A stretch of 32,523 nt of DNA, from NCBI GenBank assembly GCA_011620345.1, contig WOZJ01000018.1, positions 1 to 32,523 of the forward strand. The letters run 5' to 3'. The DNA is from Nitrospirota bacterium (GTDB lineage: Bacteria; UBA2233). Below are positions 5,377 through 30,602 of the stretch, in pieces (position 1 is the first letter of the stretch; every line of letters starts with the position of its first letter). The notes beneath the pieces are model-generated. The model was not told the DNA's origin and ran no database searches. It saw only the letters and a list, made by a program, of their open reading frames with translations. A program made the translations under genes and the position numbers.

Positions 5377-6606
5377 CTAGGCGTAGAGAGGAAACGCCTC
5401 ACAGAGCTCGAGAACACGGTGCTGCACACGCAATTTTACGCTTTCGTCGTCCCTTTGCTTGAAGACATCGGCGATCAGACGGGCGACTTCTTCAGACTCC
5501 TGCTCGGTAAACCCGCGGGTTGTGATCGCAGGGGTTCCTATCCGGATACCGCTCGTCACTCCGGGAGGTAAAGGATCAAACGGGATAACATTCTTGTTCG
5601 TCGTAATCCCCACCTGCTCCAGCAAACTCTCGGCCTGCTTGCCCGTAAGGCCAACGGAGCGGACGTCCAAAAGGAGCATATGCGTGTCCGTTCCGCCACT
5701 CACGAGCCGAATTCCAGCTACTTCGAAAGCCCTGCTCATCGCACGGGCGTTCTCAACCACCCGTCGCTGGTAGGCTCGAAATTCCTCCGTGGAAGCCTCT
5801 TGAAACGCAACGGCCTTTGCCGCGACGACGTTCATCAGCGGGCCGCCCTGTATCCCTGGAAACACGGCTTTGTCGATGCTTTGGGCATACGGCCGTCTGG
5901 TGAGGACAACTCCGCCCCTCGGGCCCCTTAACGTTTTATGGGTGGTAAAGGTCACATACTCACAGAATGGAACTGGGTTCGGAAACAGCCCGGCCACGAT
6001 AAGCCCGGCATAATGGGCCACGTCCGCCATGAGTTTGGCCCCGACCTCGTCCGCAATCTCACGAAAGGGCTCAAAAGGGATCATTCTTGGATAGCTCGAC
6101 GCTCCGACAACGATAAGCTTCGGGCGGACCTTCATGGCCTGAAGACGTACTTGGTCAAAGTCGATCCGCTCGGTTTTTTCATCCACCCCGTAGGAATGGA
6201 CATCGTAAAGGATACCGGAAAAATTTACAGGGCTTCCGTGACTTAAATGCCCGCCATGCTTTAAATCCATGGCCAAGAGTGCATCGCCCGGCTTGAGGCA
6301 GGAGAACAAAACGGCCATGTTCGCCTGCGTTCCTGAATGGGGCTGAACGTTGGCATGTTCCGCTCCAAAAAGCCCCTTAACCCTGTCGATCGCCAAGGTT
6401 TCCGCCTGGTCCATGTACAGGCAGCCGCCGTAGTAGCGCTTGCCTGGGTACCCTTCGGCATACTTGTTCGTCATCACGCTGCCAAGCGCCTCGAGGACTG
6501 CCCTTGAGGTAAAATTCTCCGAAGCGATAAGCTCCAGCCCCTCTCTTTGGCGTTCCATCTCATGTTGAATAACAGCGGCAATTTCAGGGTCAACTTCTCT
6601 TAACAT
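5377..6606 (-). CDS. glyA: Serine hydroxymethyltransferase
   Basis: PLP enzyme converting serine and tetrahydrofolate to glycine and 5,10-methylene-tetrahydrofolate, the main one-carbon source. At 409 residues it is of usual length. Diagnostic motifs are 'ELIASENF', '[15 protein letters not shown]', 'HSGTQAN' and '[12 protein letters not shown]', with the Schiff-base lysine at K224. The ATG overlaps the end of rpiB by 7 bases, and the stop TAG lies just before ribD. Its position between rpiB and ribD matches an arrangement frequent in Desulfovibrio-like genomes. Confidence 0.97.
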
Positions 6607-15233: not shown

Positions 15234-15895
15234 TCGCCCTTCTCGTGTGGCGCATGGCGGATGTCCTTGCCCTGAACCATGAACACGATCATCTCGGCGA
15301 TGTTCGTCGTATGGTCTCCTACCCTTTCTAAACTCTTGGCGATGGAAGAAAGGGCGAGAGCCTTGCGGATGTTCTTCGGGTCTTCCATCATGTAGGTCAA
15401 AAGCTCCCGAAACACTTGAATGTTGAGGTCGTCTACGAACTGGTCGTCCGCAATCACGCTTTGGGCAAGCACAGCATCCCCTTCAAAGAAGGCGTCCAAG
15501 CTCCTGCGGATCATCTTGCGTACCTGCTCGGCCATTCTGGGCAGATCCACGTAGGGTTTCAAAGGGGGCTCATTGACGATTTCCAAGACCCTTTCGCCGA
15601 TGTTGACGAGAAGATCCCCGATTCGCTCCAAATCTGTCGTAATCTTTATGGCCGTGAACACAAACCTGAGGTCTTTGGCCGCCGGCTGTTTTAAGACGAT
15701 CATATTCCTAGAAATCCTATCGATCTCAAGCTCGAGCTGGTCGATCTTGTCGTCGGATTCGATAACCATCTGGGCCTTCCGTTCGTCCTTTTCGACGAGC
15801 GCGCCGAGCGCCATTTCAAGGCGCTCTTCGATCATCGCCCCCATCTTGAGGATCAGCCTTCGTACCTCTAGGATGTCTTCGTCGATTCTTCGCAT
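15230..15895 (-). CDS. phoU: Phosphate-transport accessory regulator PhoU
   Basis: Cytoplasmic protein linking the Pst transporter to PhoR-type phosphate sensing. Two three-helix PhoU repeats are visible, each with its metal-binding helix: 'AIKITTDLERIGD' near 82 and 'SIAKSLERVGDHTTNIAE' near 190. The 'QPAAKDLRF' segment is also typical. It has 221 residues. It lies 15 bases after pstB, the usual pstB-phoU order, and overlaps nadE by 4 bases. Confidence 0.95.
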   Translation of the reverse strand: MRRIDEDILEVRRLILKMGAMIEERLEMALGALVEKDERKAQMVIESDDKIDQLELEIDRISRNMIVLKQPAAKDLRFVFTAIKITTDLERIGDLLVNIGERVLEIVNEPPLKPYVDLPRMAEQVRKMIRRSLDAFFEGDAVLAQSVIADDQFVDDLNIQVFRELLTYMMEDPKNIRKALALSSIAKSLERVGDHTTNIAEMIVFMVQGKDIRHAPHEKGE

Positions 15896-15910: not shown

Positions 15911-16675
15911 CTAGCCGAATTTTCCGGTAATGTAGTCTTCCGTTTCCTTCTTGGCCGGTGTGACAAAGATCGCCTCGGTCTTATCGTACTCGATCAAGCG
16001 GCCTATGTAGAAGAATGCAGTGGAGTCGCTGCACCTTGCCGCCTGCTGCATGTTGTGCGTAACGATGACGATCGTGTACGAGCTCTTCAAGTCTTGAATT
16101 AACTCTTCGAGCTTTGCCGTTGCAATCGGGTCGAGCGCAGAGGCCGGCTCATCCAAAAGAAGAATCTTCGGGCCTACTGCCAAGGCCCTGGCGATGCAAA
16201 GCCGCTGCTGCTGCCCCCCCGAAAGGCCGAGTGCGGGTTCTCGAAGCCTGTCTTTAACCTCGTCAAACAGCCCGGCCCTTCGCAGGCTATCCTCGACGAT
16301 AGCATCCAAATCTCTTGCGCCGCGAACCCCGTGCAGCTTGGGGCCAAACGCCACGTTGTCGTAGATGGACTTAGGGAAGGGGTTGGCCTTCTGGAACACC
16401 ATCCCGACGTTTTTGCGAAGCTGGGCCACATCCACACCGTTGTTATAGATATCGGCTCCTTCGATCATCACCCGGCCTTCCGCCCTGGCCCCTGGGACAA
16501 GCTCGTGCATACGGTTCAATACCTTCAGGAACGTCGATTTTCCGCAGCCTGACGGGCCAATCAGCGCGGTGATCTGATTGCGGTAAATCTCCATGCTAAC
16601 ACCAAACAGCGCCTGTTTCTTGCCGTAAAAAAAGTTAAGCCCCTCAACCCGAATCGAAACTCTGCCGTTCATCAT
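15911..16675 (-). CDS. pstB: Phosphate ABC transporter ATPase PstB
   Basis: ATP-hydrolysing subunit of the high-affinity phosphate importer PstSCAB. Walker A 'GPSGCGKST' is at residues 40-48, the signature '[15 protein letters not shown]' at 151-165 and Walker B '[13 protein letters not shown]' around 171-183. PstB-specific features include '[15 protein letters not shown]' and '[20 protein letters not shown]'. GGAGGGG lies upstream of the ATG. The partner genes pstS, pstC and pstA are not in the window; the upstream neighbour is a DUF2334 gene instead. Confidence 0.96.
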
Positions 16676-16698: not shown

Positions 16699-17475
16699 TC
16701 AGGCTGACGGAACGAATAAAGACCCGAGCGTGACTTGAGGAAGCACGGCAAAGCTCCGTATGGACTCAAGAACGCCCAAAAAATATCCCTTGCACTCGAT
16801 GTCTCCCGGATGAAACTCTACCCGTAGAATGGGCGAGCGCTGTACTCGAACGCCAAGGCGGACATACGGAAGGGCAAACATCCTCCGAAGGGGGGTTCGG
16901 ACAGACCCAGAGATGACCTTCGAGCGAATACCAAGCCTTTGACGGAAATCTACAAGCCATCCAAAGGTTGCAAGCGAGCGAAACCCGGCCATTTGTACCG
17001 CAGCCCACTGTTTCCTGGAAAGTATCCAGGCGGGAGCAACGAACCCCCCCGGGGAAAGTCCGGCCTGCGAGAGCATTCCAAGGCCTTCTTGAAGGCGTTC
17101 AAGGAGGTGCGGTTCGGCCATACCCAAACACTCCCCCTCTCCGTTGGTCGCCACTCTTTGCAGAACCCGTCTATAGGCCCATTTTAAGTCTTTTGTCAAA
17201 TAAGGATCCCAGCGGTGAAGAATGCCGTGCATCGCCACTTCGTCTCCCTTGGCCATCCTCTCTTTGACATACTTCACGAGCCTGGCTTCCTGCGAAAACT
17301 TCAGCCTGCCATGATACCACGGAACGGCAAGGAGCGTTACCCGCTCCACCCCAACCTTCTCCAGCGCACGCCGGATGGCCACAACTTGGCAAAAGCTTCC
17401 CGGGTAGACGTCATGAATGGCGACGTAAAGAGACTTACCGGCCAAGGAGACTTCTTTGATCCCGCAGGGCAACAT
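16699..17475 (-). CDS. DUF2334-type polysaccharide deacetylase-fold protein
   Basis: The 258-residue protein fits the DUF2334 branch of the polysaccharide deacetylase superfamily. The metal-binding pattern is intact: 'IHDVYP' (Asp 22), 'VPWYHGR', and '[13 protein letters not shown]' with H83 and H87, followed by '[10 protein letters not shown]'. No signal peptide is seen, so it is probably cytoplasmic. Enzymes of this fold remove acyl groups from sugar amides; the substrate here is unknown. It lies between a GT4 glycosyltransferase (whose end it overlaps by 41 bases if the ATG at 17475 is used) and pstB. Its link to glycosyltransferases suggests work on a glycolipid or glycan precursor, which is inference. 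Confidence 0.8.
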
Positions 17476-18607
17476 ACAAAGCCTTCAGCGATTCGAATGT
17501 ACGGTTCCAACTGAAGCGATCAAGGACAAGCTTCCTCGCGAGCGAACCCAAGCGTTCGCGATCCATACCGAGAACTTTCGCAACGGCATCGGCAAACGCG
17601 CCCGGAGAGGGGTCTGCAACGGGAAAGCTTGCTTGTCCCATGTCGGCACACAGAAAGCCAAGGTTTTTTTGGAATACCACGGGCGTCCCGGAAGACAGCG
17701 CCTCGAGCGCGGCCAAGCCGAACGTCTCATAGCGGCTTGGCATCACGAGCACGTCCACGCTCGCGTACAACACGGCGAGCGTTTGTTTTGGCAGATAGCC
17801 CAAGTACCGAACCACTTGGGGGTGTTCCCGCTGAAGTTCCAGGGCTTGGGGGCTCATGGGCCCGTCCCCCGCGATCAGGCAATTTGTAGCCATTCTTTCC
17901 CAAAGCATGCGCTGAACCTCGAGGAAGAGCGGAAAACACTTGTCTTTGCTAAGCCTGCCCACGTAAAGCACCGAGGGGAGCGAGGGGTCTAGCCCTAAGG
18001 CTTGGAGCAGTTGAGGGTTACGTTTTTCTGGGGCAAACAATGCGGTATCCACGCCGAGGCTCACGAGCGTTGCGTTTTCGATTCCTAATTGTCTCAGCTT
18101 GTCTAAGAGGGGTTGCGTAGCAGCAAGCGTGGCATCGAAGCGGTTATAGAGGGCCTTTGTATATTTAAGCGCGATCGTATAGGGAAGGCTTGCAAGCCGC
18201 CATGGATGCCCATTCCGGGCAGATACCCGAAAATATGTGTCCGAGAAATCGCTGTGGTAAAACCCGACGCATGGAACCTTCCGAGTCCTGGCGTAGTACA
18301 ACGCGCTCCATGGTAAAAGGTCCGGAGAGCCTACTTCAAGCACATCAGGCGCTTCTTTTCTCAAGATTCGAAGGCAGACGAGCGGGTTTAGAATGAGCCG
18401 GTACTGCATGTTCCAAGGAACGGGCATCCCGTGCACCCTGTAGATCTTCCTCCCTGGCACCTCGAGGACCTCGTTCCGTTTGTAAGGCACGATAAGCAGC
18501 TGCTTCCACGCGCCCGTCCTCACGCCGTATTCCCCTTTGGCCTCGAGGTAGGTCTTGATCCCACCGCTCCTTTCCGAGTAGAACTGCGTAAGGTCGCAAA
18601 CGTACAT
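17435..18607 (-). CDS. GT4-family glycosyltransferase
   Basis: The 390-residue protein has the GT-B two-domain layout. The N-terminal acceptor domain (to about 195) includes 'SGGIKTYLEAKG' and 'GFYHSDFSDTYFR'; the C-terminal nucleotide-sugar domain starts at 'VLYVGRLSKDK'. The retaining-enzyme E-x7-E motif is seen in 'SRYETFGLAALEALSSG'. It resembles GDP-mannose-type alpha-mannosyltransferases of the GT4 family, but donor and acceptor cannot be set from sequence. No membrane segment is obvious. The ATG is preceded by CAGGAA. It follows the PHP-glycosyltransferase fusion by 72 bases. Confidence 0.88.
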   Translation of the reverse strand: MYVCDLTQFYSERSGGIKTYLEAKGEYGVRTGAWKQLLIVPYKRNEVLEVPGRKIYRVHGMPVPWNMQYRLILNPLVCLRILRKEAPDVLEVGSPDLLPWSALYYARTRKVPCVGFYHSDFSDTYFRVSARNGHPWRLASLPYTIALKYTKALYNRFDATLAATQPLLDKLRQLGIENATLVSLGVDTALFAPEKRNPQLLQALGLDPSLPSVLYVGRLSKDKCFPLFLEVQRMLWERMATNCLIAGDGPMSPQALELQREHPQVVRYLGYLPKQTLAVLYASVDVLVMPSRYETFGLAALEALSSGTPVVFQKNLGFLCADMGQASFPVADPSPGAFADAVAKVLGMDRERLGSLARKLVLDRFSWNRTFESLKALYVALRDQRSLLGR

Positions 18608-18679: not shown

Positions 18680-21214
18680 TCAAGAAAGGCGCTTGAGGGC
18701 AAACGTCTCCCTTGCGTGCATTTGCCAAAATGCCTCAAACGCCTTGTCGAACGAACGATTTTCCATGTACCGCCTGGCCTCGATCGCCATCTCCTGTCTT
18801 CTTGCGGGGCTCTCAAGTAGCTCTTCTATCGCCTTGACGAGCGCGAAACTGCTCCCAGCCTTGAACACAAGGCCCGTCCTGCCTGCTTCAAGGTTCTCGG
18901 AGGGCCCGCCCTCATCGGCCACAACGACGGGGATACCGGAGGCTTGGGCTTCGAGGACGACGTTCCCAAACGTATCCGTCGAGGAGGGAAAGACAAAAAT
19001 ATCGGCAGAAGCGTAAACGCTCGAAAGCTCTTCCCCTTCGAGCGGCCCTGTAAATGTAATGCCAGAACCCTCGCATTTTGCCTTCAGTGCCCCTAAATAA
19101 GGGCCATCCCCCACGACGATCAACCCGGTGTTCTTATGGCGCTCTTTGACAAAAAGGTAGGCATCGATCAGCAGGTCCAAACCCTTCTCTTTCGAGACTC
19201 TTCCCACGTACAGGAGCTTTGTCTCTCCGTTGTTCGAAAAATTTTTCCAGATATCTTGGTTGCGAAAGCGCGGATGGAAGCGCTGAATGTCGATCCCCCT
19301 CGGAAAAACCTTGATCTTATCCGGCGTAAAACCGTTTTGCACCAGTTGGTTCATCGTCGCCTTGGAGGGGACGAATACGATATCCATCTGTTCGTAGTAC
19401 CAGCGGATATATCGCCAGCTCATCTCCTCCATCGAAAAATCTCCCGTTAGAATCCGGACATACTGAGGGATGTCTGTGTGATAGATGCCGTTGATCGGGA
19501 TGTCCAAGAGCCTTGCAACCAACAACCCGGCGAGCCCCATGGGGCCGGGCGTCGAGGAGATCACGGAGTCAAACCCCTCACGCTCGCAAAACTCCACGAT
19601 GTCCAAAAGTGGCGGAACGTAGAGCTTAATGCTCTCGTATTCCGGGATCGGGAATGTCAAGAGCGGAAGAAACTTGACGAACACGTCCTCTAGGTAGGCC
19701 TCAATTTTGGCGTTCTGCGGGCATGCCACGACCTTTAAGTCTTTGGCGCTTCTCTTGGCGGATCGTGCCATCTCGAGGATGGTCCTGGCTACGCCGTTGA
19801 CGTCGAATATGGTGTCCGAAAACCAGACCCTCCTGTCCAAGGGTTCCCCGCGTAGGTCCTCTAGAAGTCCGAGCCCATCTAGGACCTCACGGATACGCTT
19901 TTTGTCTTTGTTTTGATGGTGGTAGGAAAAAAAGTATGGCATAAGCAACATTTGGACCATGGCAAGGGCAGAGAGGTGATTAAAGTTGTCTAAAATCTTG
20001 AAGGTTTTTAAGTTTTTTAAGAACTTCGAGACGAAGTTCGAAGTCATGTGCTGTGAAATGCCGGAGGCGAGCTTTAGGTAGTTCTCGTTGATCGCCTCCC
20101 ACTTTGCCTCGTCCGTAGCCCAAAGGCCCGAAAGCTCTTCGCTATGCGTCAAAAAAGAGGCCCTTCGCCCAAGAATACGAAGGAGGGCCTGATCGCCCTT
20201 TGGGATGTCCTCTCTGGGCTCGTAGCGTTCGATGAGCCGCTTGACCTTTTTTGCGATCGCCGACTGGAGTGTGCCCTTGGCGCCGGACTGGGGGTTTTCT
20301 CCGTTGCTCCCCGACTCTTGAGAAATCTTGTCAAGCAACGAAAATAGCAAATCTTCTGGCTTTTTGACCTCCTTGAGCACGTCCTTTGCTAAAAACTGGT
20401 AAGCAATTGCGTATAAACTATGGGCAAGCCCCAAAGGCGAGCCGTACCGCCCTGCACCCCTGCTCTGGCCAGATCGAAGGAACGAAAGAAACTCTTCAGG
20501 CGTGGCAGCTTTGGGCACAACCGTGTAGGCATGGCCGACAAACAGGCCTCCGTGATCGTCCGAACCCCCTGCCATACCTCGCCTTGTCTCAAGGATAGGC
20601 TCGAGGTCCATCGGGTTTCGGTCGGCAAGCTCGAGCAGGAAGTCTCTTGTAAGGCACCCTAAAAGCCTTTCGAAGGCCATGCTCGTGATCGCTTTTCTCG
20701 AACCGTTCACCGTCTCGAACGCAGGAAACAAGAGCAGCAACCTCTCGATATGGTAGCGTTTCAGGCGGTCGTTAATGGCGTAGAAGGGGTGCGTCACGTA
20801 ATGGACGACGTTCTTTTCGCGCAGATAAGCGACGAGCTCATAGATATTGTCCCGCACGCTCGCGATATCCTCGTGAATCTTTTCGTCGATTCCTAGCACC
20901 TGGACGTGGATCTTGCAATCGTCCTCGGGAAAATATGTCGTGACTTCTTCGCCGATAACCACGTCCGGATGGTGGGCGATTTCGAGCGCTCCATCGATCA
21001 CGTTATGGTCGGTGATCGTCACGAAGTCCATTCCTAACGCCTTCTCCGTGGTGTACACCCAAGAAGGCTCGAGGTAGCTCTCCTGACAGCCTAGCCGCCT
21101 CAAGAGCCACTGCGTGGGCTTTGTGGAGTACTTTGAATGAACGTGAAGATCGGCCATGGATACCAACGCCCGGTCTATATTCGAAGAAAGCTCTTTTCTT
21201 CGTTCGGTGTCCAT
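18680..21214 (-). CDS. PHP-domain / GT4 glycosyltransferase fusion
   Basis: The 844-residue protein has three parts. Residues about 20-250 are a PHP metal-dependent phosphoesterase with ligands H24 and H26 ('DLHVH'), D69-H70 ('TITDH'), E89/E90, H142 ('VTHPF') and D219-H221 ('GGSDDH'). Residues 250-455 are a helical linker of no known family. Residues about 460-830 are a GT4 glycosyltransferase with 'DVNGVARTI', 'LYVGRVSKEKG' and 'PSSTDTFGNVVLEA'; the first Glu of the usual E-x7-E is Asp (747). Similar PHP-GT fusions occur in deltaproteobacteria as far as I recall. It may remove a phosphate and transfer a sugar on one lipid or polyol substrate, which is inference. It starts 22 bases after the phosphomutase. 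Confidence 0.88.
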   Translation of the reverse strand: MDTERRKELSSNIDRALVSMADLHVHSKYSTKPTQWLLRRLGCQESYLEPSWVYTTEKALGMDFVTITDHNVIDGALEIAHHPDVVIGEEVTTYFPEDDCKIHVQVLGIDEKIHEDIASVRDNIYELVAYLREKNVVHYVTHPFYAINDRLKRYHIERLLLLFPAFETVNGSRKAITSMAFERLLGCLTRDFLLELADRNPMDLEPILETRRGMAGGSDDHGGLFVGHAYTVVPKAATPEEFLSFLRSGQSRGAGRYGSPLGLAHSLYAIAYQFLAKDVLKEVKKPEDLLFSLLDKISQESGSNGENPQSGAKGTLQSAIAKKVKRLIERYEPREDIPKGDQALLRILGRRASFLTHSEELSGLWATDEAKWEAINENYLKLASGISQHMTSNFVSKFLKNLKTFKILDNFNHLSALAMVQMLLMPYFFSYHHQNKDKKRIREVLDGLGLLEDLRGEPLDRRVWFSDTIFDVNGVARTILEMARSAKRSAKDLKVVACPQNAKIEAYLEDVFVKFLPLLTFPIPEYESIKLYVPPLLDIVEFCEREGFDSVISSTPGPMGLAGLLVARLLDIPINGIYHTDIPQYVRILTGDFSMEEMSWRYIRWYYEQMDIVFVPSKATMNQLVQNGFTPDKIKVFPRGIDIQRFHPRFRNQDIWKNFSNNGETKLLYVGRVSKEKGLDLLIDAYLFVKERHKNTGLIVVGDGPYLGALKAKCEGSGITFTGPLEGEELSSVYASADIFVFPSSTDTFGNVVLEAQASGIPVVVADEGGPSENLEAGRTGLVFKAGSSFALVKAIEELLESPARRQEMAIEARRYMENRSFDKAFEAFWQMHARETFALKRLS

Positions 21215-21236: not shown

Positions 21237-22709
21237 CTACTTTGTTTGGCTTTGAAACAACTCCTTCAACCCTTCGGCCCAGGCCAGCATAGCCCGAAAA
21301 ACATCCAAAGAAGCCGATTCGAAATACAGCCTGATTTTGTTCTCGGTGCCAGATGGGCGGATCAAAATCCAAGAGTCATCTTCAAAGTACCTCTTGTAGC
21401 CGTCCAGCGAGGAATCGTGCAGCATCGAGGCCCCTTGGAAGGCGCTTGGGAGGCTTTCGATCGCCAAGCGGAAGGCTTTCTCGGATCGGGCTTCCGCAAT
21501 GGGGATGTCCAACCTCTGGAAGGTAAGCTCTCCGTACCGAGACCTAAGCCTTAAGAGCTGCTCGTGGAAAGGCCCTTCTTTGACCCGCATTTCAAGCGCA
21601 AACATGTCGGTCAAAAGCCCGTCTTTATCCGGGATGTTCGGGGAGTACGCAAAACCTCCACTCTCTTCGACGCCTAGAAGTCCCGAAGATTGCACCATCC
21701 GCGATGCAATGTTTTTGAATCCTACGGGGCTCTCGATCACCTCGACGCCAAAGGCCCTTGCAATACGGTCGACCATGCTTGAGGTGGAAACGCTCTTGAC
21801 GACGGCTCCCCTTTCCCCGCGCACACGAAGCAGGTAATCGACAATCAGCGCAATCAAATCGGTGTTATCGACATAAACCCCCTGATCGTCCATCACCCCA
21901 AAGCGGTCCCCGTCGCCGTCCGTTGCCAGGCCAAGGAGCGCCCCTCTTTGGCGAACCTCGTAAGCCAGGTCACGAAGCGCCCTAGGGGAGGGGGCGGTTT
22001 CGTCAAGGCCTCCAAAGTATGGGTCTGGCTGAGCATGCAGCGGAAACGCGACAGCTCCCACTTTGTTCAGCAGGCTTCCAAAGCACCGGGCACTGGCGCC
22101 GTGAAGAGAGTCGTATACGACAAAGGGATTGGCCTTGTAAATTGCCTGTACATCGAGCAGCGAACACAGATGCTCTACATAATCCTCCTTTGCGGACACG
22201 CTCCGGAGCATCCCTTCGGTTTCGATCGGCTTGGGTACAACGGTGCTTTTATCGCACAAGGCCTCGATTTCGCCCGTTAAAGAGCCGTCCGCAAGCCCCG
22301 TACGCGTTGTAAGCTTGACGCCATGATAGTAAAACGGGTTATGGCTTGCTGTAACGTTGATCCCCAAGTCGTATTTGCCTTGAATGGTCGCAAAAGACAG
22401 CGCCGGGGTTGTTATCGGATAAGCCTCAAAATCTACGGAAACCCCAGAACGCACGAGCGTACAGGCGATCAATTCTGCAAACAACCTGGAAAAAAAGCGC
22501 GTATCGTACCCTAGACGAACAACGCGTTGGGCTTCTGGATAGCCCAGACTCAGGTAGACGGCAATTGCGTTTGCAAGGGTTACAACTTTGGAGAGCGTAA
22601 CTTCTCGGGCAAGGATCCCCCGCCAACCGGAGGTACCAAATCGGATGGGAAAATCGCTTTTATCGAACGTCAGGTTCTCAAAAAGCCCTAAAAATTGGAG
22701 GATATCCAT
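21237..22709 (-). CDS. Phosphoglucomutase / phosphomannomutase family
   Basis: Alpha-D-phosphohexomutase moving phosphate between C1 and C6 of a hexose, and so supplying precursors for sugar nucleotides. Motifs: 'FGTSGWRG' at about 24-31, the phosphoserine loop 'TASHNP' with S122, the metal loop 'DGDGDRFG' near 264, the sugar loop 'EESGGF' near 348 and the phosphate-binding 'RPSGTENKIR' near 450. The frame extends upstream to 22808, but that part lies inside the HprK-like gene; ATG 22709 (490 residues, MDILQF) with CGGAG upstream is the better start. It overlaps the preceding gene by 22 bases. It probably serves the two glycosyltransferases downstream. Confidence 0.92.
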   Translation of the reverse strand: MDILQFLGLFENLTFDKSDFPIRFGTSGWRGILAREVTLSKVVTLANAIAVYLSLGYPEAQRVVRLGYDTRFFSRLFAELIACTLVRSGVSVDFEAYPITTPALSFATIQGKYDLGINVTASHNPFYYHGVKLTTRTGLADGSLTGEIEALCDKSTVVPKPIETEGMLRSVSAKEDYVEHLCSLLDVQAIYKANPFVVYDSLHGASARCFGSLLNKVGAVAFPLHAQPDPYFGGLDETAPSPRALRDLAYEVRQRGALLGLATDGDGDRFGVMDDQGVYVDNTDLIALIVDYLLRVRGERGAVVKSVSTSSMVDRIARAFGVEVIESPVGFKNIASRMVQSSGLLGVEESGGFAYSPNIPDKDGLLTDMFALEMRVKEGPFHEQLLRLRSRYGELTFQRLDIPIAEARSEKAFRLAIESLPSAFQGASMLHDSSLDGYKRYFEDDSWILIRPSGTENKIRLYFESASLDVFRAMLAWAEGLKELFQSQTK

Positions 22710-23770
22710 GATGCAAGCTGCTCCGGTGCAAACTTTCCTTTTGCTTGAAGCGCCCTCACCCGACCATTGAAGTTTTTGAACAAAGCCAGGTCGAATGCCT
22801 TCGGACAAGAACGGTCTACCGTCCCAACGACGGGAACCTTCAAGGTTTTTCCAGCGAACGAAGACAGCTCTTCTTGCCCCAGCTGCTCGATCCTGAGATC
22901 CTCCTTTGCATTACGAGACCACTCCAAGAACACAATCCCTTTCAGCTCTCCCCAGGGCTTTGCAATGCCATGACTGTACACTTCTTGTACGGGAACGTCA
23001 CGCTTCATCTCTAGATTCCAGAGGCTATCTTGCCCTAGGGATGCGAGCTCTTCTAGCTCCTTGTGGCTCAAGAGCGTCCGGAGGTGGGGGTCGGAGAAGA
23101 TCGTCCCGGGATTTACCCTAGGAAGCTTTGGAAACCCGACGGCTTGAATGGATGACCCTGCATATCCTACGAGCACCCTATCGTTGGCCACGTAACGGAA
23201 CCCTTCGCCAAGGAGTCTAAGGAGCGTCGTTGTCTTGCCTCTCCCGGAGCTCGAGGCGATGAGAACAACGCCACCCTCCCTTGTAGCCGCGGCGCCGGCG
23301 TGGAACAGCAAGAATCCAGCCTCAAGCCAGGCAAGGCTCAACACGTCGTTCACGACGTTGACCGCGGAATTCCAATCCGAAACGCCAGGCTCTTCAAACC
23401 ATACCACTCGCCGTTCACCGTTTACGATGTAGCGCAAGCCGGAGCGAACTTTCTTGATCACCAGGAAGGACCCTATTTTCAGCAAAGCATCTTTCGCCGA
23501 AATAGGCCCAAAGGAGAGCCCGTCGAGCCATTCTGGGAACCTTCCCACAAGCACCGACTTGAACTGGAGGCTTGGTCCAAAAGGCATCCTCCCCTCTTCG
23601 ACAAGGTAGGGGCCGTAGCGGTCCAGCAAAGGGGTCAGAGGCTTTTGGTTGGGTGCACTGACAATCAATTCCTGCCCCATGAGGACAAGCGGAAAACGAT
23701 GGATAGCCCTACGTTCCTCTTGCGCCAGGAAGGCCGCCAGGGAAGATTCAAGCGAGCCGTCGAAGGACAT
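22688..23770 (-). CDS. HprK-related kinase (GAK-system type)
   Basis: The protein has 360 residues if started at ATG 23770; the open frame continues to 23905 but there overlaps the ATP-grasp gene. The central part has the HPr-kinase pattern: 'LLFHAGAAATREGGVVLIA', the P-loop 'SSSGRGKTT' (K179) and 'GFRYVANDRVLVG', where HprK has Asp-Asp and this protein has Asn-Asp (196-197). The N-terminal 150 residues are unlike HprK. It best fits the 'HprK-related kinase B' idea, a kinase found with ATP-grasp and amphi-Trp proteins; the actual substrate is unknown. No HPr, PTS or carbon-control gene is nearby, which argues against a true HprK. The gene overlaps the ATP-grasp gene by 23 bases and the mutase by 22. 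Confidence 0.75.
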   Translation of the reverse strand: MSFDGSLESSLAAFLAQEERRAIHRFPLVLMGQELIVSAPNQKPLTPLLDRYGPYLVEEGRMPFGPSLQFKSVLVGRFPEWLDGLSFGPISAKDALLKIGSFLVIKKVRSGLRYIVNGERRVVWFEEPGVSDWNSAVNVVNDVLSLAWLEAGFLLFHAGAAATREGGVVLIASSSGRGKTTTLLRLLGEGFRYVANDRVLVGYAGSSIQAVGFPKLPRVNPGTIFSDPHLRTLLSHKELEELASLGQDSLWNLEMKRDVPVQEVYSHGIAKPWGELKGIVFLEWSRNAKEDLRIEQLGQEELSSFAGKTLKVPVVGTVDRSCPKAFDLALFKNFNGRVRALQAKGKFAPEQLASWISSNF

Positions 23771-24638
23771 AGCCGGCAAACAATCGGGCGGCATCCAACC
23801 CGTATGCTTCATGCAGTCCACGAAACCCGCCAAAGGCGCTGACTTCGTAGACCAAAAAACCATCCGGCCCTTCGACAAGGTCCACTCCGGCATAACTAAG
23901 GCCAAACACGCGCTCAGCCTGTTTTGCTACCTCAAAGGCCGGCCCAGGGAGGTCGTAAGGCTCATAATGCCCGCCTTCTATAGTGGTCGTTTTCCAACTC
24001 CCCTCCTTCGCCACACGAGCATAGGCTTTAAGGAACTCTCCGCCAAGAAACATCACCCCTATGTCCCGCGTCCCTTTGGCAGGGATGAACTCTTGCACAT
24101 AAAAGAATGGGCCATGGGTTTGCTTCCAAGCCTCTAGCGCACCTTTCTCGGCTTCCGGCTTGCCCAAACCAACCCGGAGCATTCCACGAGCCTTTGAGGT
24201 GAAAAGGGGCTTGATGACGGCCTCTTGCACCTCCCTAAGGAAATTCAACACATCCTCGGACCGCTCCGTGATCAGGGTCTTTGGCATGGGAACGCCCGCA
24301 AGAGCAAGGCGGAGCGTCATGCTCATACGATCAATCGCCGCCGCGATCGCTTCGGGGGGAGAGAATACGGGCGTTCCCAGGGATTGAATCGCTTTGAGCT
24401 GCGCTACGCGCTCTGTCAGCGTAATATCGGAGGAATCGCCCAGCTTCTTCACTACCACCGCATCGATGGACAGCGCATCCTCGGACCCGAGGCGGACTTT
24501 AAGCGAAGGCAACGATGCCGCGATCGCATCGTAAGGGACCAAAAAAGCCTCGGCCCCCTCCTCGAGAAAGGCTTCTTTAAGCTTTTCGGAAGACCAACCG
24601 CCGGGGATACCGACAACCGCTATTCGCTTTGAGGCCAT
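23748..24638 (-). CDS. ATP-grasp ligase (GAK-system type)
   Basis: The 296-residue protein follows the RimK/ATP-grasp plan. An N-terminal Rossmann-like part ('IAVVGIPGGWSSEKLKEAFLEEG') is followed by 'GTPVFSPPEAIAAAIDRMSMTLRLALAGVPMPKT', the lysine strand 'EAVIKPLFTSKARGM', 'FYVQEFIPAKGTRDIGVMF' and a C-terminal metal-binding 'YAGVDLVEG...YEVSAFGGFRGL'. Such enzymes join a carboxylate to an amine or thiol using ATP through an acyl-phosphate. The usual terminal Asn of RimK (EVNxxP) reads 'EVSAFG', so metal binding may differ. It overlaps the PhoU-kinase gene by 19 bases and the HprK-like gene by 23, which implies strict co-expression. The substrate is unknown. Confidence 0.82.
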   Translation of the reverse strand: MASKRIAVVGIPGGWSSEKLKEAFLEEGAEAFLVPYDAIAASLPSLKVRLGSEDALSIDAVVVKKLGDSSDITLTERVAQLKAIQSLGTPVFSPPEAIAAAIDRMSMTLRLALAGVPMPKTLITERSEDVLNFLREVQEAVIKPLFTSKARGMLRVGLGKPEAEKGALEAWKQTHGPFFYVQEFIPAKGTRDIGVMFLGGEFLKAYARVAKEGSWKTTTIEGGHYEPYDLPGPAFEVAKQAERVFGLSYAGVDLVEGPDGFLVYEVSAFGGFRGLHEAYGLDAARLFAGYVLRRLA

Positions 24639-26224
24639 GCGATAAACCGTTCCAAGTGTAGAATGCCTAACAGATAAAGTTTTTTTGCCAACTCCAGTTG
24701 GTTGACAACCCTGCTCGAAGTAATGAACACGCGGCCCAATGCAACCATAAGCCTTCGTTTGGCATGGCGATCGCTGTAAGCGCGGCCAAACGCTTCGGCA
24801 AACCTTTCGAGTGATTCATTCACAAAGACTAAGTCTTCTTTAAGGTAGGTAGAAAGGAGTGGGTTTCGAATGTTCGAAACGATGATCGTTGCGATATCCT
24901 GAATATAATCCCCATAGCCGGAGCGGTGCACATCGATGAACTTTACGCCGTCTGTTCTGCTATCGTAAAACACATTATTGGAGTTAAAATCTCCGTGAAT
25001 CCAAACTTCAAACGGCGGGAGAACCTCTTCTTCTAGCAGGGCGGCTCCTTGAAGGAGTTCGGTTAAGGAAGGGGCTGACTTACCGCAAAAGGAAACGGGA
25101 AACTTCCTGATCTCTTCAAGCTCTGGATAAAAGGCATGCACCTCTTTTAGTCGCTTGATCAATTGAGGAACATAGCGGGTCGAAGGCTCTGCTTTTCGGA
25201 TTGTCGATTGCCATAGCATCCGAAGAACTTCGATAATCCTCTCGAGCGATCGACGTTTCAGCTCAAAGTCCCCGAAAAAGAGGATTTCTTCGAAAGTCTT
25301 GCCCTGGAGGTATTCCGTGACAAGGATCTCTCGGTCCCCAAAGTACTGCTCGACCGTTAATTTAGGAACGACTCCAGGATAAACCCTCTGCCAATCCTCG
25401 ATCTTCTGCGCCTCTTCCGAGATCTTACTCCGTTCACCTTCTTTAAGCACAAGACGCCGATGGCCATCTTGCTCCACAAGGAAAACGCGCGCGCCGCTTT
25501 TCCCCCCCCAAAGCGCCTGCATCCCGGCTACCGAGTGATTTTCTAGGGTTTCCCGGATATGCAGCAGCTGATGGACTTTTATCTTTTCTCCTAGAATCGT
25601 GTAAACCCCAAGCTCTCCCAAATTGGCAAGAACATCCCCCATGTTCTCGGCATATTTGAGGGCGAAGAGATAGGCGATTGGAAAATTCTCCTCGCTTAAG
25701 CCTACGCGACTCGCCTCATCGAAAAGGGCGGCTACTCCTCGCTGGTAAATTTCATCCAGCCTCACCTCGAAAGCGCAGACATCCTGCGCAAGCTCGATAT
25801 CTTTCTGAAAGAGCGCGTCGAGAGCCATCTTGAGCCCAGCATCAATGATATCTGCAAGCTCATCAATGGGCACCCACGGAGGTATCGGGGAGTTGTCCTT
25901 GATATGAAGGGTCTGCTTTGCGATGTTCACCCCGTAATCGGCCAGCTTCTCTAAGTTGGTCGAAACCCTTACGTACCCCCTAAGAGAGAGAACCTCCGGC
26001 TTAGGGAGCTTTCCTTGCTCAATGAGGTCAAAACACCGGTCTACAATAAGAACATTCAGGGCGTCGATTCGGTCGTCCTTATCGATCACGCCCTGGGCAA
26101 GCGCTTTATCTCCCCCCTTAAAGGCCTCGAAGGCCTCCGCAACGAGAGCTCCAACCATTCGGGCCATCTTGCCCAGCTCATGCTGGATGTTTTCTGCATC
26201 CAGCCTTGCGTTTGCAATATCCAT
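24620..26224 (-). CDS. PhoU domain fused to APH-type phosphotransferase
   Basis: The 534-residue protein has two clear parts. Residues 1-215 are a PhoU-like helical bundle with two metal-helix repeats, 'VSTNLEKLADYGVNIAKQ' (87-104) and 'LKYAENMGDVLANLGE' (189-204). Residues about 225-530 form an aminoglycoside/choline-kinase fold: a glycine loop 'GGKSGARVFLV', ATP-lysine K261 ('LVLKEGE'), catalytic 'HGDFNSNN' (H410, D412, N417) and metal aspartate D431 ('FIDVHRSGYGD'). All kinase residues are present, so activity is expected; the substrate is unknown, possibly a small alcohol or an unusual sugar. The PhoU half may sense phosphate or dock to a partner, which is inference. The ATG lies 3 bases after the first amphi-Trp gene, with GAGG just upstream. 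Confidence 0.85.
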   Translation of the reverse strand: MDIANARLDAENIQHELGKMARMVGALVAEAFEAFKGGDKALAQGVIDKDDRIDALNVLIVDRCFDLIEQGKLPKPEVLSLRGYVRVSTNLEKLADYGVNIAKQTLHIKDNSPIPPWVPIDELADIIDAGLKMALDALFQKDIELAQDVCAFEVRLDEIYQRGVAALFDEASRVGLSEENFPIAYLFALKYAENMGDVLANLGELGVYTILGEKIKVHQLLHIRETLENHSVAGMQALWGGKSGARVFLVEQDGHRRLVLKEGERSKISEEAQKIEDWQRVYPGVVPKLTVEQYFGDREILVTEYLQGKTFEEILFFGDFELKRRSLERIIEVLRMLWQSTIRKAEPSTRYVPQLIKRLKEVHAFYPELEEIRKFPVSFCGKSAPSLTELLQGAALLEEEVLPPFEVWIHGDFNSNNVFYDSRTDGVKFIDVHRSGYGDYIQDIATIIVSNIRNPLLSTYLKEDLVFVNESLERFAEAFGRAYSDRHAKRRLMVALGRVFITSSRVVNQLELAKKLYLLGILHLERFIAWPQSE

Positions 26225-26227
26225 GCC

Positions 26228-26533
26228 TCAAGGCTGGACCTCATTCTCAACAGGCTCACGCTCGATCGTAATCAGAAGTGGCTCAGCGGTCATCTCCGCC
26301 TTTTTCTCCCAGGAAAGCTTGAGCACGAGCTTTGCTTTCCCTTCTTTCTTTTTTGCCTCCACATCCAGCTCAATCGCCCCTTCGGGGGTCAAGTACATCT
26401 CTTCTCCGCCGCTTGTCAGGCGTACAGTCCCATTCCTTAGGGCGCTTGCGAGGCTCTCTAAATATTCGGCAACGATATGCGGTTCGGCGAACGTGCTAAA
26501 CTCAAACTCTTCTTTCTGCCCTCTTTTTGCCAT
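26228..26533 (-). CDS. Amphi-Trp domain protein
   Basis: The 101-residue protein is a single small domain. An N-terminal helical half ('STFAEPHIVAEYLESLASALRNG') is followed by beta strands ('TVRLTSGGEEMYLTP', 'AIELDVEAKKKEGKAKLVLKLSWEKK') with the nearly invariant tryptophan W75 in an alternating polar/apolar strand. This is the pattern called the amphi-Trp domain. Its biochemical role is unknown. A clean AAAGGAG lies 9 bases ahead of the ATG. It sits directly before the PhoU-kinase gene. Confidence 0.8.
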   Translation of the reverse strand: MAKRGQKEEFEFSTFAEPHIVAEYLESLASALRNGTVRLTSGGEEMYLTPEGAIELDVEAKKKEGKAKLVLKLSWEKKAEMTAEPLLITIEREPVENEVQP

Positions 26534-26590
26534 CTACGCCGCTCCTTTTATGACATTCTAAAGCCATTTTAGCGTTTTTTTCGGCAAGCC

Positions 26591-27118
26591 TCAATGCCCA
26601 AGAACCCTAAAGCCTTTTTCTGAGCGGTTTAAAGCCCTGTAGACTTTTCCTTCCTTTTGGAGCTTTCCCTCTCCGATCAGCCGGAGCACGACAGGAACCA
26701 GCTTTCTCCAGTTCTCTCCAAGGCCCTCACCCAACTCGATCAGCGAGGCACCGTGAGGTTTTACGTGCAACAAATAATCTAGCACCCTTTCGTCCTGCAA
26801 ATTGCTTCCAGGGGCCGACACAGGCTGAAAAGCGCCCTCGACGATGGTGTCGAACTCTTGGGGTCGAACATCTCGCACGCTCAACATAGGGACATCTTTC
26901 CAACTCAAAACAACTTTTACTTTTTCTTTATATTTGCTGGAGTTTATAGGCTTACGACTCGCCTTGATCCGCAACAGCGGGAGTGACGATCGAGCAAAAC
27001 TGAGGTGTTGCATCCCAGCTCGGATCGTAAAATGCCCCTCGCGCACGCCGTCGGCAAGGAAGCTAAGCAGGTTGGCCACCCTTTCCTTGTCCAATTTCAG
27101 CAGTTCCTTCATCACCAA
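26591..27118 (-). CDS. Amphi-Trp-like protein with C-terminal winged-helix-like extension
   Basis: The 175-residue protein is a divergent paralogue of the neighbouring small proteins. Residues 1-80 repeat the helix-then-strands plan ('LDKERVANLLSFLADGVREG', 'KEKVKVVLSWKD' with W73). After a linker, residues about 110-170 look like a winged helix: 'DERVLDYLLHVKPHGASLIELGEGLGENWRKLVPVVLRLIGEGKLQKEGKVYRAL'-type spacing of helix, turn, helix and wing. That part could bind DNA or protein, which is inference. The start is uncertain among TTG 27118, GTG 27115 and ATG 27112; GGAGGG lies 10 bases before the TTG. It overlaps the upstream paralogue by about 50 bases. Confidence 0.65.
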   Translation of the reverse strand: MVMKELLKLDKERVANLLSFLADGVREGHFTIRAGMQHLSFARSSLPLLRIKASRKPINSSKYKEKVKVVLSWKDVPMLSVRDVRPQEFDTIVEGAFQPVSAPGSNLQDERVLDYLLHVKPHGASLIELGEGLGENWRKLVPVVLRLIGEGKLQKEGKVYRALNRSEKGFRVLGH

Positions 27119-27341
27119 TGTCCAAGGCCCTCCCTTTCAACCCCTCGATCTTGAGGGCAATACGGAAGCGATCCCCATCCTCTTTGAGCTCAAACTCGAG
27201 CGCAACTGGACCGACAAGGAGTATGGGTTTCGAAGGCTCAAGCCCGCCTTCTACGACAAGCTTCCCCTTTGCAAACCCATACCCTAGGGTTCGAAGAAAT
27301 TCCGCCGCTTCATCTCGGTTTAGCGTACGCTTAAAACGCAT
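27063..27341 (-). CDS. Amphi-Trp-like small protein lacking the tryptophan
   Basis: The 92-residue protein has the same plan as its two downstream neighbours: 'LNRDEAAEFLRTLGYGFAKGKLVVEGG', then 'VALEFELKEDGDRFRIALKIEGLKG'. At the position of the conserved Trp it has Gly 67. The last 25 residues are Gly-rich and overlap the next gene. It may be a structural partner of the others or a decaying copy; reading-frame intactness favours function. It starts 28 bases after the PHP gene. Confidence 0.6.
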   Translation of the reverse strand: MRFKRTLNRDEAAEFLRTLGYGFAKGKLVVEGGLEPSKPILLVGPVALEFELKEDGDRFRIALKIEGLKGRALDIGDEGTAEIGQGKGGQPA

Positions 27342-27369
27342 TCTCTTCTTTTGTCACACACATAACGGG

Positions 27370-28149
27370 CTAACAGGCCAAACGGCCGGGAACCTCCAAG
27401 GGAACTTCATCGATTCCCCTTGCACGCTTCACGGCCCTCTTGATCTTATGGCTCATGTACACCCTGAGTGCAGGGAATTTGCCGCAGTAATAGTTGGTCT
27501 TCCGGTCGTGGATGGCGCTAAACAGGTGCTCAAGGCCAAACCGCTCGTCCGGAACGAGGGTCGCTCTAACGGCCAATTGAAGCCAATGGTGGGCATCAGA
27601 CCCGCCTGTCACGGCAAGTTCGAGCTCAGAGGCGCGCTGAAGCAGCTTGAGCTCCAGCCCGTAATCCTTTCCGTTCACCTCCACGGCATCAAGACGCTTG
27701 AGAAGCCTTTCGGGAAACTTTTCTAGGTTTTTTTCTCCTCTAAACATGTGCGCACCGATAAGCAATACCTCAAGCCCATCGCGGGCACCAAGCAATTCCT
27801 CGAATGGCGGCTTGTAGCCCGACACCGGGGGCATAGAAAGCCTCGCTGCAAGGGTACGGACATGTTCAACCGGGCCTATGGCCAAGATGTCCCCCCCCTC
27901 GGCAATGCTAATCTCCGCGCCAGGAAGAAATGCAAAATTCTTTCCGACTCGGTACACCCCGTCTTTGTATGGAAAACGAGACGAAAAGTAGCGGTATACG
28001 CCAAAATAATCCGGCGCGTGCAAGTGCTCTGTAACCGCTATGCCTTGCAGGCCGACTACAGAAGCGGTCCTGATGTAACGATCGACGCGCTTCGGTTCGA
28101 ACGTGAACGTTTTGGATAGCATCATATGGGTGTGCAGGTCTATGACCAT
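27370..28149 (-). CDS. PHP-family metal-dependent phosphoesterase
   Basis: The 259-residue stand-alone PHP domain carries 'DLHTHMMLS' (H6, H8), 'GIAVTEHLHAPDYF' (E41-H42 in place of the usual Asp-His), 'PGAEISI' (E79), 'LLIGAHMFRG' (H134) and 'GGSDAHH' (D185, H187). A full set of metal ligands is therefore present. Relatives hydrolyse phosphate esters such as histidinol phosphate or nucleotides; the substrate here is unknown. It heads the amphi-Trp/kinase/ligase run. A perfect AGGAGG (28161-28156) lies 6 bases before the ATG, the strongest ribosome site in this region, suggesting a transcript start in the 93 bases upstream. No convincing -10/-35 pair was found there. Confidence 0.85.
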   Translation of the reverse strand: MVIDLHTHMMLSKTFTFEPKRVDRYIRTASVVGLQGIAVTEHLHAPDYFGVYRYFSSRFPYKDGVYRVGKNFAFLPGAEISIAEGGDILAIGPVEHVRTLAARLSMPPVSGYKPPFEELLGARDGLEVLLIGAHMFRGEKNLEKFPERLLKRLDAVEVNGKDYGLELKLLQRASELELAVTGGSDAHHWLQLAVRATLVPDERFGLEHLFSAIHDRKTNYYCGKFPALRVYMSHKIKRAVKRARGIDEVPLEVPGRLAC

Positions 28150-28242
28150 TTATTGCCTCCTGACGGCTAGTGTTTTACCAATCATGAGATCAGCGTACCA
28201 CAGCCCAGGTTGCAGCTTTGTGACGGAAACGTTACGGTTTTA

Positions 28243-30516
28243 TTACAAGGCATCGGCTTTCCACGAGGCGACAAAGCAGCTCGCAGTGTTTTTTTTGGCG
28301 ACCTTTTTGAGTTTGGCCGCCTCCTCTCCCACCTCAAGATGCCCATCAAATGCTCCAGGCTCAAGCAGAACGCCAGCCATAGAGATGGCGATGAGGGGAA
28401 ATTCCCGAACGTGCCCTTCTCTATCCTGGGACACAATGTATCCCCGGCTCCGGTCCTCTTCGGTGTAGAAGTTCGCGATGGAGGCGTCGAAACGTTCGAC
28501 AATTTCCATACAGGCTTTTTCCGAGTTTTCTACGGGGAGGATGAAGATAAAGTCATCCCCCCCAACATGCCCCAAAAACCCATCCTCGGCTTGATCGATC
28601 GCGCTCTTGAGCGTAAAGGCCGTATATTTGATCACATCGTCCCCATGGGTGAACCCATAACGGTCGTTGTAGGCTTTGAAGTTGTCGAGGTCCGCATAGA
28701 CAACCACGTGCCTAAGGCGCCCTTGAATCCTTCGGTTGATCTCGTCGTAAATCGGGATGTTTCCGGGTAGCCCCGTCAACGGGTTTGCATACGTTGCGAA
28801 CAATATCTGGAGCTCGGAGGTCTTTCGGAATAGCTCGTGGACAGTCCCTAGCCCTGAATACTTCCCGGACTTCGTCACAAGAAATGGATCATACACACGA
28901 AAAGGCGGGCGTTCCAGGCAGGCCCTGGAAACACGCTCTAGAGAATCCGTTGCTTCGACGATCACGGGGTTGGAGTCCATTAATCGCTCGATCGGCTTTT
29001 CGCAGTATAAGGCATACCCAAACTCACTGGATAGTTTAAGGAACAAGGGTTCGCGGACAACGAGGCCGACGGGACTTCCCATTGGGTTGACAACAGGCAA
29101 CGCCACCAGGTCTTCTTTCTCCTTGAACCTCTGAACCACTACCCTTACCTTTGTGGTTGGGAAAATGGGTTCGACAAAATGTTTCAGTTCCTCGATGCCG
29201 CTTCCCGAGGCGGGCCTTTCGCCGATTTCTACCTTGGAAAACAATTTGTGGATCTCCGTAAGTGACTCCGAAAAACCAGCCACCGATTCGTTCGGCCTTC
29301 CCAAGAAATAGCCTTGCCCTAGGTCGACTCCAAGCTTATAGACCTCTTTGAGCTCATCAAAGGTCTCGATTCCCTCGGCAACAACGAGGACTCCTAAGGA
29401 GTGGGCCAAATCCACGAGAGAACGCACAAGGCGGAGCTTGATGTATGACTTGCCGAGATCTTGGATAACTCCCCTGTCTATCTTGATGATATCCGGCGTT
29501 TGATGGACAAGGATAGGGATGAGGCTGATGCCGGCACCCACGTCGTCGATTGCCACGACAAACCCCTGACGCTTGTAATGGGCAATGGCCTCGAGCACGC
29601 CTTGGAGGGTAGGGAGCCTGATATTTTCCGTAACCTCGACAACGAGCTGATCGTAGGAAAGCCCATACCTCTGGGCAAGCGCTTTGGTAAGCCCAATTTC
29701 CCGGGAAGGCGCTAAGACCACTTCAGGGTCGATGTTTACGGCAAGCCTTTTTTGAATCTTTTGCCTCGAGGCGTTAAAGAAGGCGCGTTCCCGCATGGCT
29801 CCCTCGAGCAACGTCAGCTGGCTCGTCTCTTTGGCGGCTCCGATAAGCTGAACGATGTTTAAAAACGGCACGGAGGTTGTAGGGAAGGAGAGGCATTCAT
29901 AGCCAAACAATTCGGCCGTCTTGAGCGAATAGATCGGCTGGAAACGCGTAGAAATGAGCCCCCTTTGAATAATCTCCTGAATGCCGGCCTCTATCTTGTA
30001 AGAGGTGTCGTAGCCCTTGTCGTCCCCCTTCCCTCCGTCGTTTAGCGTAGTGTTGAGGTCTTGGAAGATACGAAGAACCTGATAATCCAAGGAAAGCTCG
30101 CAATTCAACGCCGCTTCCAGCACGCCAACACGAATGTCCCCCCGCAAAGAGGCGCCATCTTCTATCCCAAAGGCCTGAAGAAAGGCGGGATTTTGGAAGA
30201 ACTCCCTAATTTTTGGTACCACGACCATTTTCTCGCTACGCTCGATTGGAGCGTCGGGGATTAGAAGAAGCTCCCATGGGCCGATCACGCAGCCGGTCCC
30301 ATCGATGCCCGCATATTCGGCCAGCGATTCTGCAAGGGTTCGCGTCTGGTAAAGATCGACCTTAGAGGATGCGCTTGCCTGGCCATTGCCAATAATTTCC
30401 CGGAAGTTTACAGAAAACACACAAAACCTCTGCCTTTCAGAAAGCAGGCGCTTCATGAACACGATCAGGGATTCGAGGTCGGGCAAGAGACCGAGACGTC
30501 TCGATTTTTCTCGCAT
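28243..30516 (-). CDS. EAL-CBS-GGDEF cyclic-di-GMP protein
   Basis: The protein has 757 residues from ATG 30516; the frame is open to 30576, but the added Lys-rich leader looks non-coding. Residues about 15-90 resemble a worn GGDEF domain in which the signature reads GPWEL. Residues about 185-425 are an EAL phosphodiesterase with 'RFQPIY', 'GYECLSF' (EAL reads ECL), N261, 'EVTEN', 'AIDDVGAG' (D324-D325), K345, 'VVAEGIET' and 'GQGYFLGRP' (Q401). The catalytic acids are kept. Residues about 445-575 fit a CBS pair. Residues about 580-745 are a GGDEF domain with 'LTGLPGN', 'YADLDNFKAYNDRYGFTHGDDV' and the signature GGDDF. No membrane helix is seen, so it is cytoplasmic. It could break or make c-di-GMP under nucleotide control via the CBS part. 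Confidence 0.88.
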   Translation of the reverse strand: MREKSRRLGLLPDLESLIVFMKRLLSERQRFCVFSVNFREIIGNGQASASSKVDLYQTRTLAESLAEYAGIDGTGCVIGPWELLLIPDAPIERSEKMVVVPKIREFFQNPAFLQAFGIEDGASLRGDIRVGVLEAALNCELSLDYQVLRIFQDLNTTLNDGGKGDDKGYDTSYKIEAGIQEIIQRGLISTRFQPIYSLKTAELFGYECLSFPTTSVPFLNIVQLIGAAKETSQLTLLEGAMRERAFFNASRQKIQKRLAVNIDPEVVLAPSREIGLTKALAQRYGLSYDQLVVEVTENIRLPTLQGVLEAIAHYKRQGFVVAIDDVGAGISLIPILVHQTPDIIKIDRGVIQDLGKSYIKLRLVRSLVDLAHSLGVLVVAEGIETFDELKEVYKLGVDLGQGYFLGRPNESVAGFSESLTEIHKLFSKVEIGERPASGSGIEELKHFVEPIFPTTKVRVVVQRFKEKEDLVALPVVNPMGSPVGLVVREPLFLKLSSEFGYALYCEKPIERLMDSNPVIVEATDSLERVSRACLERPPFRVYDPFLVTKSGKYSGLGTVHELFRKTSELQILFATYANPLTGLPGNIPIYDEINRRIQGRLRHVVVYADLDNFKAYNDRYGFTHGDDVIKYTAFTLKSAIDQAEDGFLGHVGGDDFIFILPVENSEKACMEIVERFDASIANFYTEEDRSRGYIVSQDREGHVREFPLIAISMAGVLLEPGAFDGHLEVGEEAAKLKKVAKKNTASCFVASWKADAL

Positions 30517-30602
30517 AAACACCGCTAACGCCCTTTTTGGTTTTTTTTTACTGTAACACAACGGATATACGCACAAGCCCTAAGGCGCGCGGTATTCCTT
30601 CA

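Follow-up and report, generated by a model that had tools for sequence, protein, structure and literature searches.

Locus layout

Contig WOZJ01000018.1 of the Nitrospirota bacterium assembly GCA_011620345.1 (32,523 nucleotides, hereafter the window) carries on its minus strand a locus that almost certainly belongs to GAK, a named and widespread bacterial system without an assigned function. Seven co-directional open reading frames (ORFs), running from 28149 to 22688, encode a PHP-domain enzyme, three amphi-Trp proteins, a PhoU-domain kinase, an ATP-grasp enzyme, and an HprK-like kinase. This gene set had been described in an initial annotation of the sequence, and each ORF was confirmed on the minus strand. 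The set and its order are identical in the sister genome used for comparison, Nitrospirae bacterium UBA2233, at 81 to 95% protein identity. In the window, the PHP enzyme, the ligase, and the two kinases all retain their catalytic motifs.

The genes placed between 22688 and 28149 by the initial annotation are real, but the unit extends further, from an operator-like array at 28209 to 28248 to at least the phoU gene at 15230. In addition, the ORF of the HprK-like kinase begins at 23905, giving a 158-bp overlap with the ATP-grasp gene, and is over-extended, the true start probably lying near 23770. From PHP to NadE, all genes are co-directional and are separated by gaps of at most 72 bp or overlap, and the whole run may be co-transcribed. 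The features are as follows.

28209 to 28248, minus strand: operator-like, PHO-box-like array of four 7-bp half-sites in 11-bp register; the triple pattern is unique in the genome
27370 to 28149, minus strand: PHP-domain metalloenzyme, 259 aa, with complete metal-binding motifs; nearest solved relative PsfC (7rty)
27063 to 27341, minus strand: amphi-Trp protein 1, 92 aa, without the conserved Trp; TIGR04354, 41.2 bits, over cut-off
26591 to 27118, minus strand: amphi-Trp protein 2, 175 aa, extended at its C terminus by ∼100 aa; TIGR04354, 29.0 bits (cut-off 31)
26228 to 26533, minus strand: amphi-Trp protein 3, 101 aa, adjoining the kinase as in canonical loci; TIGR04354, 62.5 bits, and structure model
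24620 to 26224, minus strand: kinase with PhoU domains and an APH fold, 534 aa, with intact HGDFNxxN and FIDVHRS catalytic motifs; Pfam and motifs
23748 to 24638, minus strand: RimK-type ATP-grasp enzyme of the GAK family, 296 aa; TIGR04356, 285 bits, and RimK/LysX structures
22688 to 23905 (ORF), minus strand: HprK-related kinase B with intact Walker A motif; TIGR04355, 131 bits, and HPr kinase structures
21237 to 22709, minus strand: sugar-phosphate mutase of the GlmM/phosphomannomutase type, overlapping the HprK-like kinase gene by 22 bp; profiles, and near GAK in five groups
18680 to 21214, minus strand: fusion of PHP with a family 4 glycosyltransferase (PHP-GT4), 844 aa; profiles, and GAK-linked in other phyla
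17435 to 18607, minus strand: GpgS-like GT4 glycosyltransferase (best family GlcNAc-phosphatidylglycerol synthase); NF053787, 222 bits over the full length (cut-off 480)
16699 to 17475, minus strand: GpgD-like DUF2334 protein (best family GlcNAc-phosphatidylglycerol deacetylase); NF053788, 125 bits (cut-off 280)
15911 to 16675, minus strand: PstB, phosphate ABC transporter ATPase; TIGR00972, 398 bits, over cut-off
15230 to 15895, minus strand: PhoU, the sole stand-alone copy found in the genome; TIGR02135, 217 bits, over cut-off

Assignment to the GAK system

Profile searches returned GAK models as the best families of both the ligase and the HprK-like kinase, as the initial annotation had predicted, and not unrelated families. 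The ATP-grasp protein aligns with the whole of TIGR04356 (grasp_GAK) and scores 285 bits (cut-off 300), and the HprK-like protein reaches 131 bits with TIGR04355 (cut-off 200). Because the former lies just under its cut-off and the latter clearly under, membership rests on best-family status together with gene order. Two of the three small proteins exceed the TIGR04354 cut-off of 31 (62.5 and 41.2 bits), and the 175-aa copy falls just short (29.0 bits). The order amphi-Trp, PhoU-kinase, ATP-grasp, HprK is present in the window, in the sister genome, and in most of the 97 loci described below. The kinase contains PhoU domains (97 bits with Pfam) and an APH domain (55.6 bits); the PHP protein exceeds a Pfam cut-off for PHP_C only. 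Judged by sequence comparison, the locus is a deeply divergent GAK variant that branches outside the canonical loci. The initial annotation saw no CofD-like partner in the window, and the search for TIGR04357 shows that this partner is absent from the whole host genome and from the sister genome as well. An anti-phage defense system was also considered and was rejected, as no PADLOC model matched any of eight proteins searched.

GAK loci in other genomes

GTDB species genomes were scanned with the ATP-grasp alignment, giving at least 80 loci, and gene order was read with local hidden Markov models (HMMs) over 97 loci (1.59 Mb). The GAK set was found in at least about 95 loci in Thermodesulfobacteriota, Planctomycetota, Nitrospinota, Nitrospirota, Myxococcota, Zixiibacteriota, Atribacterota, Spirochaetota, Pseudomonadota, and others, and the co-location of homologues on which the initial annotation depended holds across many phyla. 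Carriers available in culture include Desulfogranum japonicum, Neptunomonas antarctica, and Onishia taeanensis. The recurrent order is PHP, amphi-Trp, PhoU-kinase, ATP-grasp, HprK, (CofD), amphi-Trp. Components were counted in 41 independent groups with enough flanking DNA: the PhoU-kinase is present in 41/41, amphi-Trp in 40/41, HprK in 39/41, a PHP gene in 31/41, CofD in 26/41, and XXXCH in 11/41. The PhoU-kinase, which none of the GAK models scanned names, is a core component because it is found in every group. CofD is not essential to GAK, since it is missing from the host and sister genomes and from the loci of 15 of the 41 groups. No paper discussing GAK or amphi-Trp was found in the literature searched.

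In the ATP-grasp tree, 55 canonical sequences fall on one side of a branch with support 100/97, and the window lineage and locus L056, from a Bacillota metagenome-assembled genome, lie on the other side together with the outgroup. A very long outgroup branch and the unusual composition of L056 leave the exact root uncertain. The window lineage and L056 share a PHP type, and local HMMs found no CofD at either locus.

Canonical loci open with a gene for a protein of ∼390 aa (e.g., L085:6776-7975 and L039:10832-11992) that has no Pfam or NCBIfam match. The motifs HWHPE, PTQHN, an internal HPE, and GDDTH are conserved in the family alignment and resemble the PHP signature. The structure predicted for the protein (mean predicted local distance difference test score [pLDDT] 90.5) has a helical insert and matches RNase AM and the PHP phosphoesterases 3o0f/3e0f (probability 1.00, modest TM-scores). 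On the basis of this model, the canonical opening gene represents a previously unrecognized PHP-fold family that merits its own family model. The window PHP gene occupies the same slot, yet no BLAST alignment joins the two; among the loci compared, its type occurs elsewhere only in L056 (37.6% identity). No PHP gene was seen at the Pseudomonadota loci examined, and alpha- and gammaproteobacterial loci carry NUDIX, histidine phosphatase, or metallophosphoesterase genes instead. Flanking histidine phosphatase, NUDIX, or calcineurin-like phosphoesterase genes were recorded at Pseudomonadota loci and at L105 (L099, L105, L114, L120, L123, L132, and L133).

The most conserved positions of the amphi-Trp alignment are W, A, and G. 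The predicted model consists of a helix and four strands, for which a PDB structure search returned no relative, and the ∼100-aa extension of amphi-Trp protein 2 matches no Pfam family. The paralogue 3′ of HprK/CofD often ends in a long tail, either acidic or rich in Lys and Ala (L079:13169-13795, L085:12001-12363, L041:11212-11658, and others), and the upstream paralogue is short. The host genome contains a fourth amphi-Trp gene away from GAK, between methyltransferase-like and peptidase-like genes (L001:1477-1749; genome G000, contig C50).

A PHO-box-like array upstream of the operon

The array reads TTGTAAT-aaaa-CCGTAAC-gttt-CCGTCAC-aaag-CTGCAAC (28248 to 28209) and lies 60 to 100 bp before the first gene, PHP. 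A PHO box consists of 7-bp direct repeats with 4-bp spacers, and the Escherichia coli motif is CTGTCAT (PMC4415409). The array has this spacing and an upstream position, with a consensus near, but not identical to, that of E. coli, and it is probably under PhoB-type control. When three half-sites in tandem were sought, with one mismatch allowed, the 1.8-Mb host genome contained no second copy, and the sister genome contained the triple only at the equivalent place, where three bases differ, two of them by C/T changes that preserve the half-site pattern.

Across the 97 GAK loci, YTGTMAY ×3 with at most two mismatches gave six matches representing three independent places, and the reversed control pattern gave none. 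These places lie 37 to 71 bp before the GAK operon (the window genus and L042) or before an olsF-like gene beside GAK (L097). In three GAK genomes, the same pattern precedes phoU, on its strand, by 2.8 kb (G073), 2.8 kb (G111), and ∼5 kb (G344), a position expected of a pst promoter.

The gene directly upstream of the GAK operon encodes an EAL-CBS-GGDEF protein (28243 to 30576, minus strand), and its stop codon lies inside the first PHO-like half-site. Homologues occur near GAK in three further groups (L041, L051, and L094), hinting at a cyclic di-GMP connection. Elsewhere in the window, ARAGORN called a tRNA-Asp (anticodon atc; 5954 to 6037, minus strand) inside a serine hydroxymethyltransferase gene, probably a false positive.

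Linkage to phosphate and membrane-lipid genes

Downstream of HprK, the run continues with the GlmM-like mutase, the PHP-GT4 fusion, the GpgS-like GT4, the GpgD-like DUF2334 protein, PstB, and PhoU. No second stand-alone phoU was found in the host genome, and the host pstSCA genes are on another contig without adjacent pstB or phoU. The initial annotation, although right in naming GAK, overlooked the features most informative about function: the PHO-box-like site, the pstB and phoU genes of the run, and the lipid-sugar genes.

Linkage was measured in 64 GAK genomes within 10.5 kb of GAK. A stand-alone phoU is linked in 8/64 genomes, against 0.38 expected (the window, L049, L051, L056, L073, L085, L089, and L129); these represent seven independent groups, and the chance of at least seven such linkages is 1.5e-7. 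A ninth apparent pair, in genome G348, was discarded and is not among the eight counted, as its PhoU match lies in a frame too short for a GAK kinase. The PHP-GT4 fusion is present in 22/64 genomes and linked to GAK in 7 of the 22 (five groups), against 0.13 expected. Recurrent neighbors also include PhoH and GlmM-like mutases (five groups each) and OlsF-like proteins and PhoB-type regulators (three each). As a further membrane-lipid association, an Lgt-like protein and phosphatidylserine decarboxylase are encoded near GAK at L075, L085, L096, and L109 (three groups). In Desulfovibrio alaskensis under phosphate limitation, phospholipids are replaced by glycolipids and ornithine lipids via agt and olsF (PMC5193443).

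Proposed function and alternatives

We consider it likely that GAK is linked to phosphate. On balance, we also favor the more specific view of GAK as a module for phosphate limitation that neighbors membrane-lipid genes and is tied to phosphate status through the PhoU-kinase; the detailed chemistry is proposed tentatively. What the sequence itself establishes is the composition, gene order, conservation, intact motifs, operator-like site, and genetic linkage. Under low phosphate, a PhoB-type regulator would probably turn on the long run of GAK, lipid-sugar, and pstB-phoU genes, with membrane remodeling as a possible output. The PhoU half of the fused kinase would most likely make its APH half responsive to phosphate status. 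Acting on a small molecule or a lipid head group, the RimK-type ligase and the two kinases may build or charge a phosphorylated, amide-bearing product, and the PHP enzyme may remove phosphate, reversing a phosphorylation. The amphi-Trp proteins could serve as noncatalytic carriers or docking subunits.

Several observations weigh against this reading. A pst or phoU gene is missing from the surroundings of most GAK loci, and no PHO box was found before the host pstS/pstSCA or before the L056 operon. The PhoB-like regulator of the host genome scores 275 bits, short of the PhoB cut-off of 296, and other OmpR-family regulators also bind repeats of 7 bp with 4-bp spacing. Across lineages, an untuned matrix gave a modest signal, with 7/49 groups at the 5% level and 5 at the 1% level, strongest at period 11, and simple identity to CTGTCAT, scored across loci, showed no specificity for a period of 11 bp. 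A matrix retuned after the hits were known gave 14/50 groups and is not primary evidence, because the retuning followed sight of the hits.

Alternatively, GAK could be chiefly a regulator of sugar or envelope metabolism, in which case the phosphate genes and 11-bp repeats would be incidental and the repeats would serve another OmpR-family regulator. In favor of this idea are the GlmM-like mutase that five groups encode close to GAK, the glycosyltransferases of several groups, the scarcity of pst and phoU neighbors, and the host pstS without a PHO-like box. We judge it improbable, given the PhoU domain fused to the core kinase in 41/41 groups, a phoU linkage ∼20-fold over expectation, and the same repeat pattern upstream of phoU operons in three GAK genomes. 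Protein modification, in which the ATP-grasp enzyme adds amino acids to the amphi-Trp proteins and the HprK-like kinase phosphorylates them, has precedents: HprK acts on HPr and RimK on ribosomal protein S6. The amphi-Trp proteins are of HPr size (∼90 aa) and are always encoded next to the enzymes, protein-modifying enzymes are among the closest solved relatives of the ligase and kinase, and one Ser/Thr position is ∼84% conserved. The alignment, however, has no invariant acceptor residue, which argues against the amphi-Trp proteins as substrates, and no C-terminal tail common to all copies; its top positions are W, A, and G, and amphi-Trp genes occur away from GAK too. We regard this explanation as unlikely, and the suggestion of the initial annotation that the amphi-Trp proteins are themselves modified gained no supporting evidence.

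A third and improbable proposal has GAK producing a cofactor of the CofD/MptN kind, a glutamylated small molecule with a phosphodiester linkage in the style of F420 or tetrahydromethanopterin. The tetrahydromethanopterin:glutamate ligase model gives the GAK ligase 164 bits and CofD-like proteins occur in 26/41 groups, but a GAK CofD is missing from the host and sister genomes and from the loci of 15/41 groups, and no other cofactor-biosynthesis family was found to recur among the neighbors. It would be similarly speculative to see in GAK a bacterial analogue of inositol-pyrophosphate/SPX signaling that makes and erases a phosphorylated small-molecule phosphate signal read by PhoU domains. The writers would conceivably be the ATP-grasp enzyme and the two kinases; the role of eraser, no less conjecturally, would fall to the PHP enzyme or, in other lineages, to the NUDIX, histidine phosphatase, and metallophosphoesterase proteins found with GAK there.

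A 2015 review described the component that senses phosphate scarcity as still unknown (PMC4415409). GAK itself was known; the variant and the likely phosphate link are new. An association with phosphate limitation and with genes that alter membrane lipids makes the function of this orphan system testable, and the parts list of the phosphate response would gain a fused PhoU-kinase and a hidden PHP-fold family.

Comparison with known systems

The window shares with the GAK system (TIGR04354, TIGR04355, TIGR04356, TIGR04357, and TIGR04358) the amphi-Trp, ATP-grasp, and HprK-related kinase B proteins in canonical order, as well as the PhoU-kinase, which canonical loci carry too. It differs in its ATP-grasp and HprK scores under the curated cut-offs, in lacking CofD and XXXCH, in its three amphi-Trp genes and other PHP family, and in its tree position outside all canonical sequences.

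Among the RimK-family alpha-L-glutamate ligases (RimK, LysX, and MptN), the ATP-grasp protein matches over its full length, and the solved structures closest to it are those of LysX and S6 modification proteins. It remains under the family cut-offs, and the metal motif in the GAK alignment is ExS (EVSAFGGF), whereas the usual motif of the family is ExN. The P-loop region of the HprK-like protein aligns with solved HPr kinases, but the likeness to HPr kinase/phosphorylase is confined to ∼48 residues and the locus has no HPr gene.

GpgS and GpgD make glucosaminyl-phosphatidylglycerol in Pseudomonas aeruginosa (PMC12713373). The GT4 and DUF2334 proteins of the window have GpgS- and GpgD-type families as their best matches in this gpgSDF pathway; their scores are far under the equivalog cut-offs, and phosphatidylglycerol is itself a phospholipid. 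Compared with Pho regulon operons (pstSCAB-phoU under PhoB), the host has its pstSCA elsewhere without a box, and the classical regulon has no kinases, ligase, or amphi-Trp genes of this kind; what the two have in common is PHO-box-like repeats upstream and, in the window run, both pstB and phoU.

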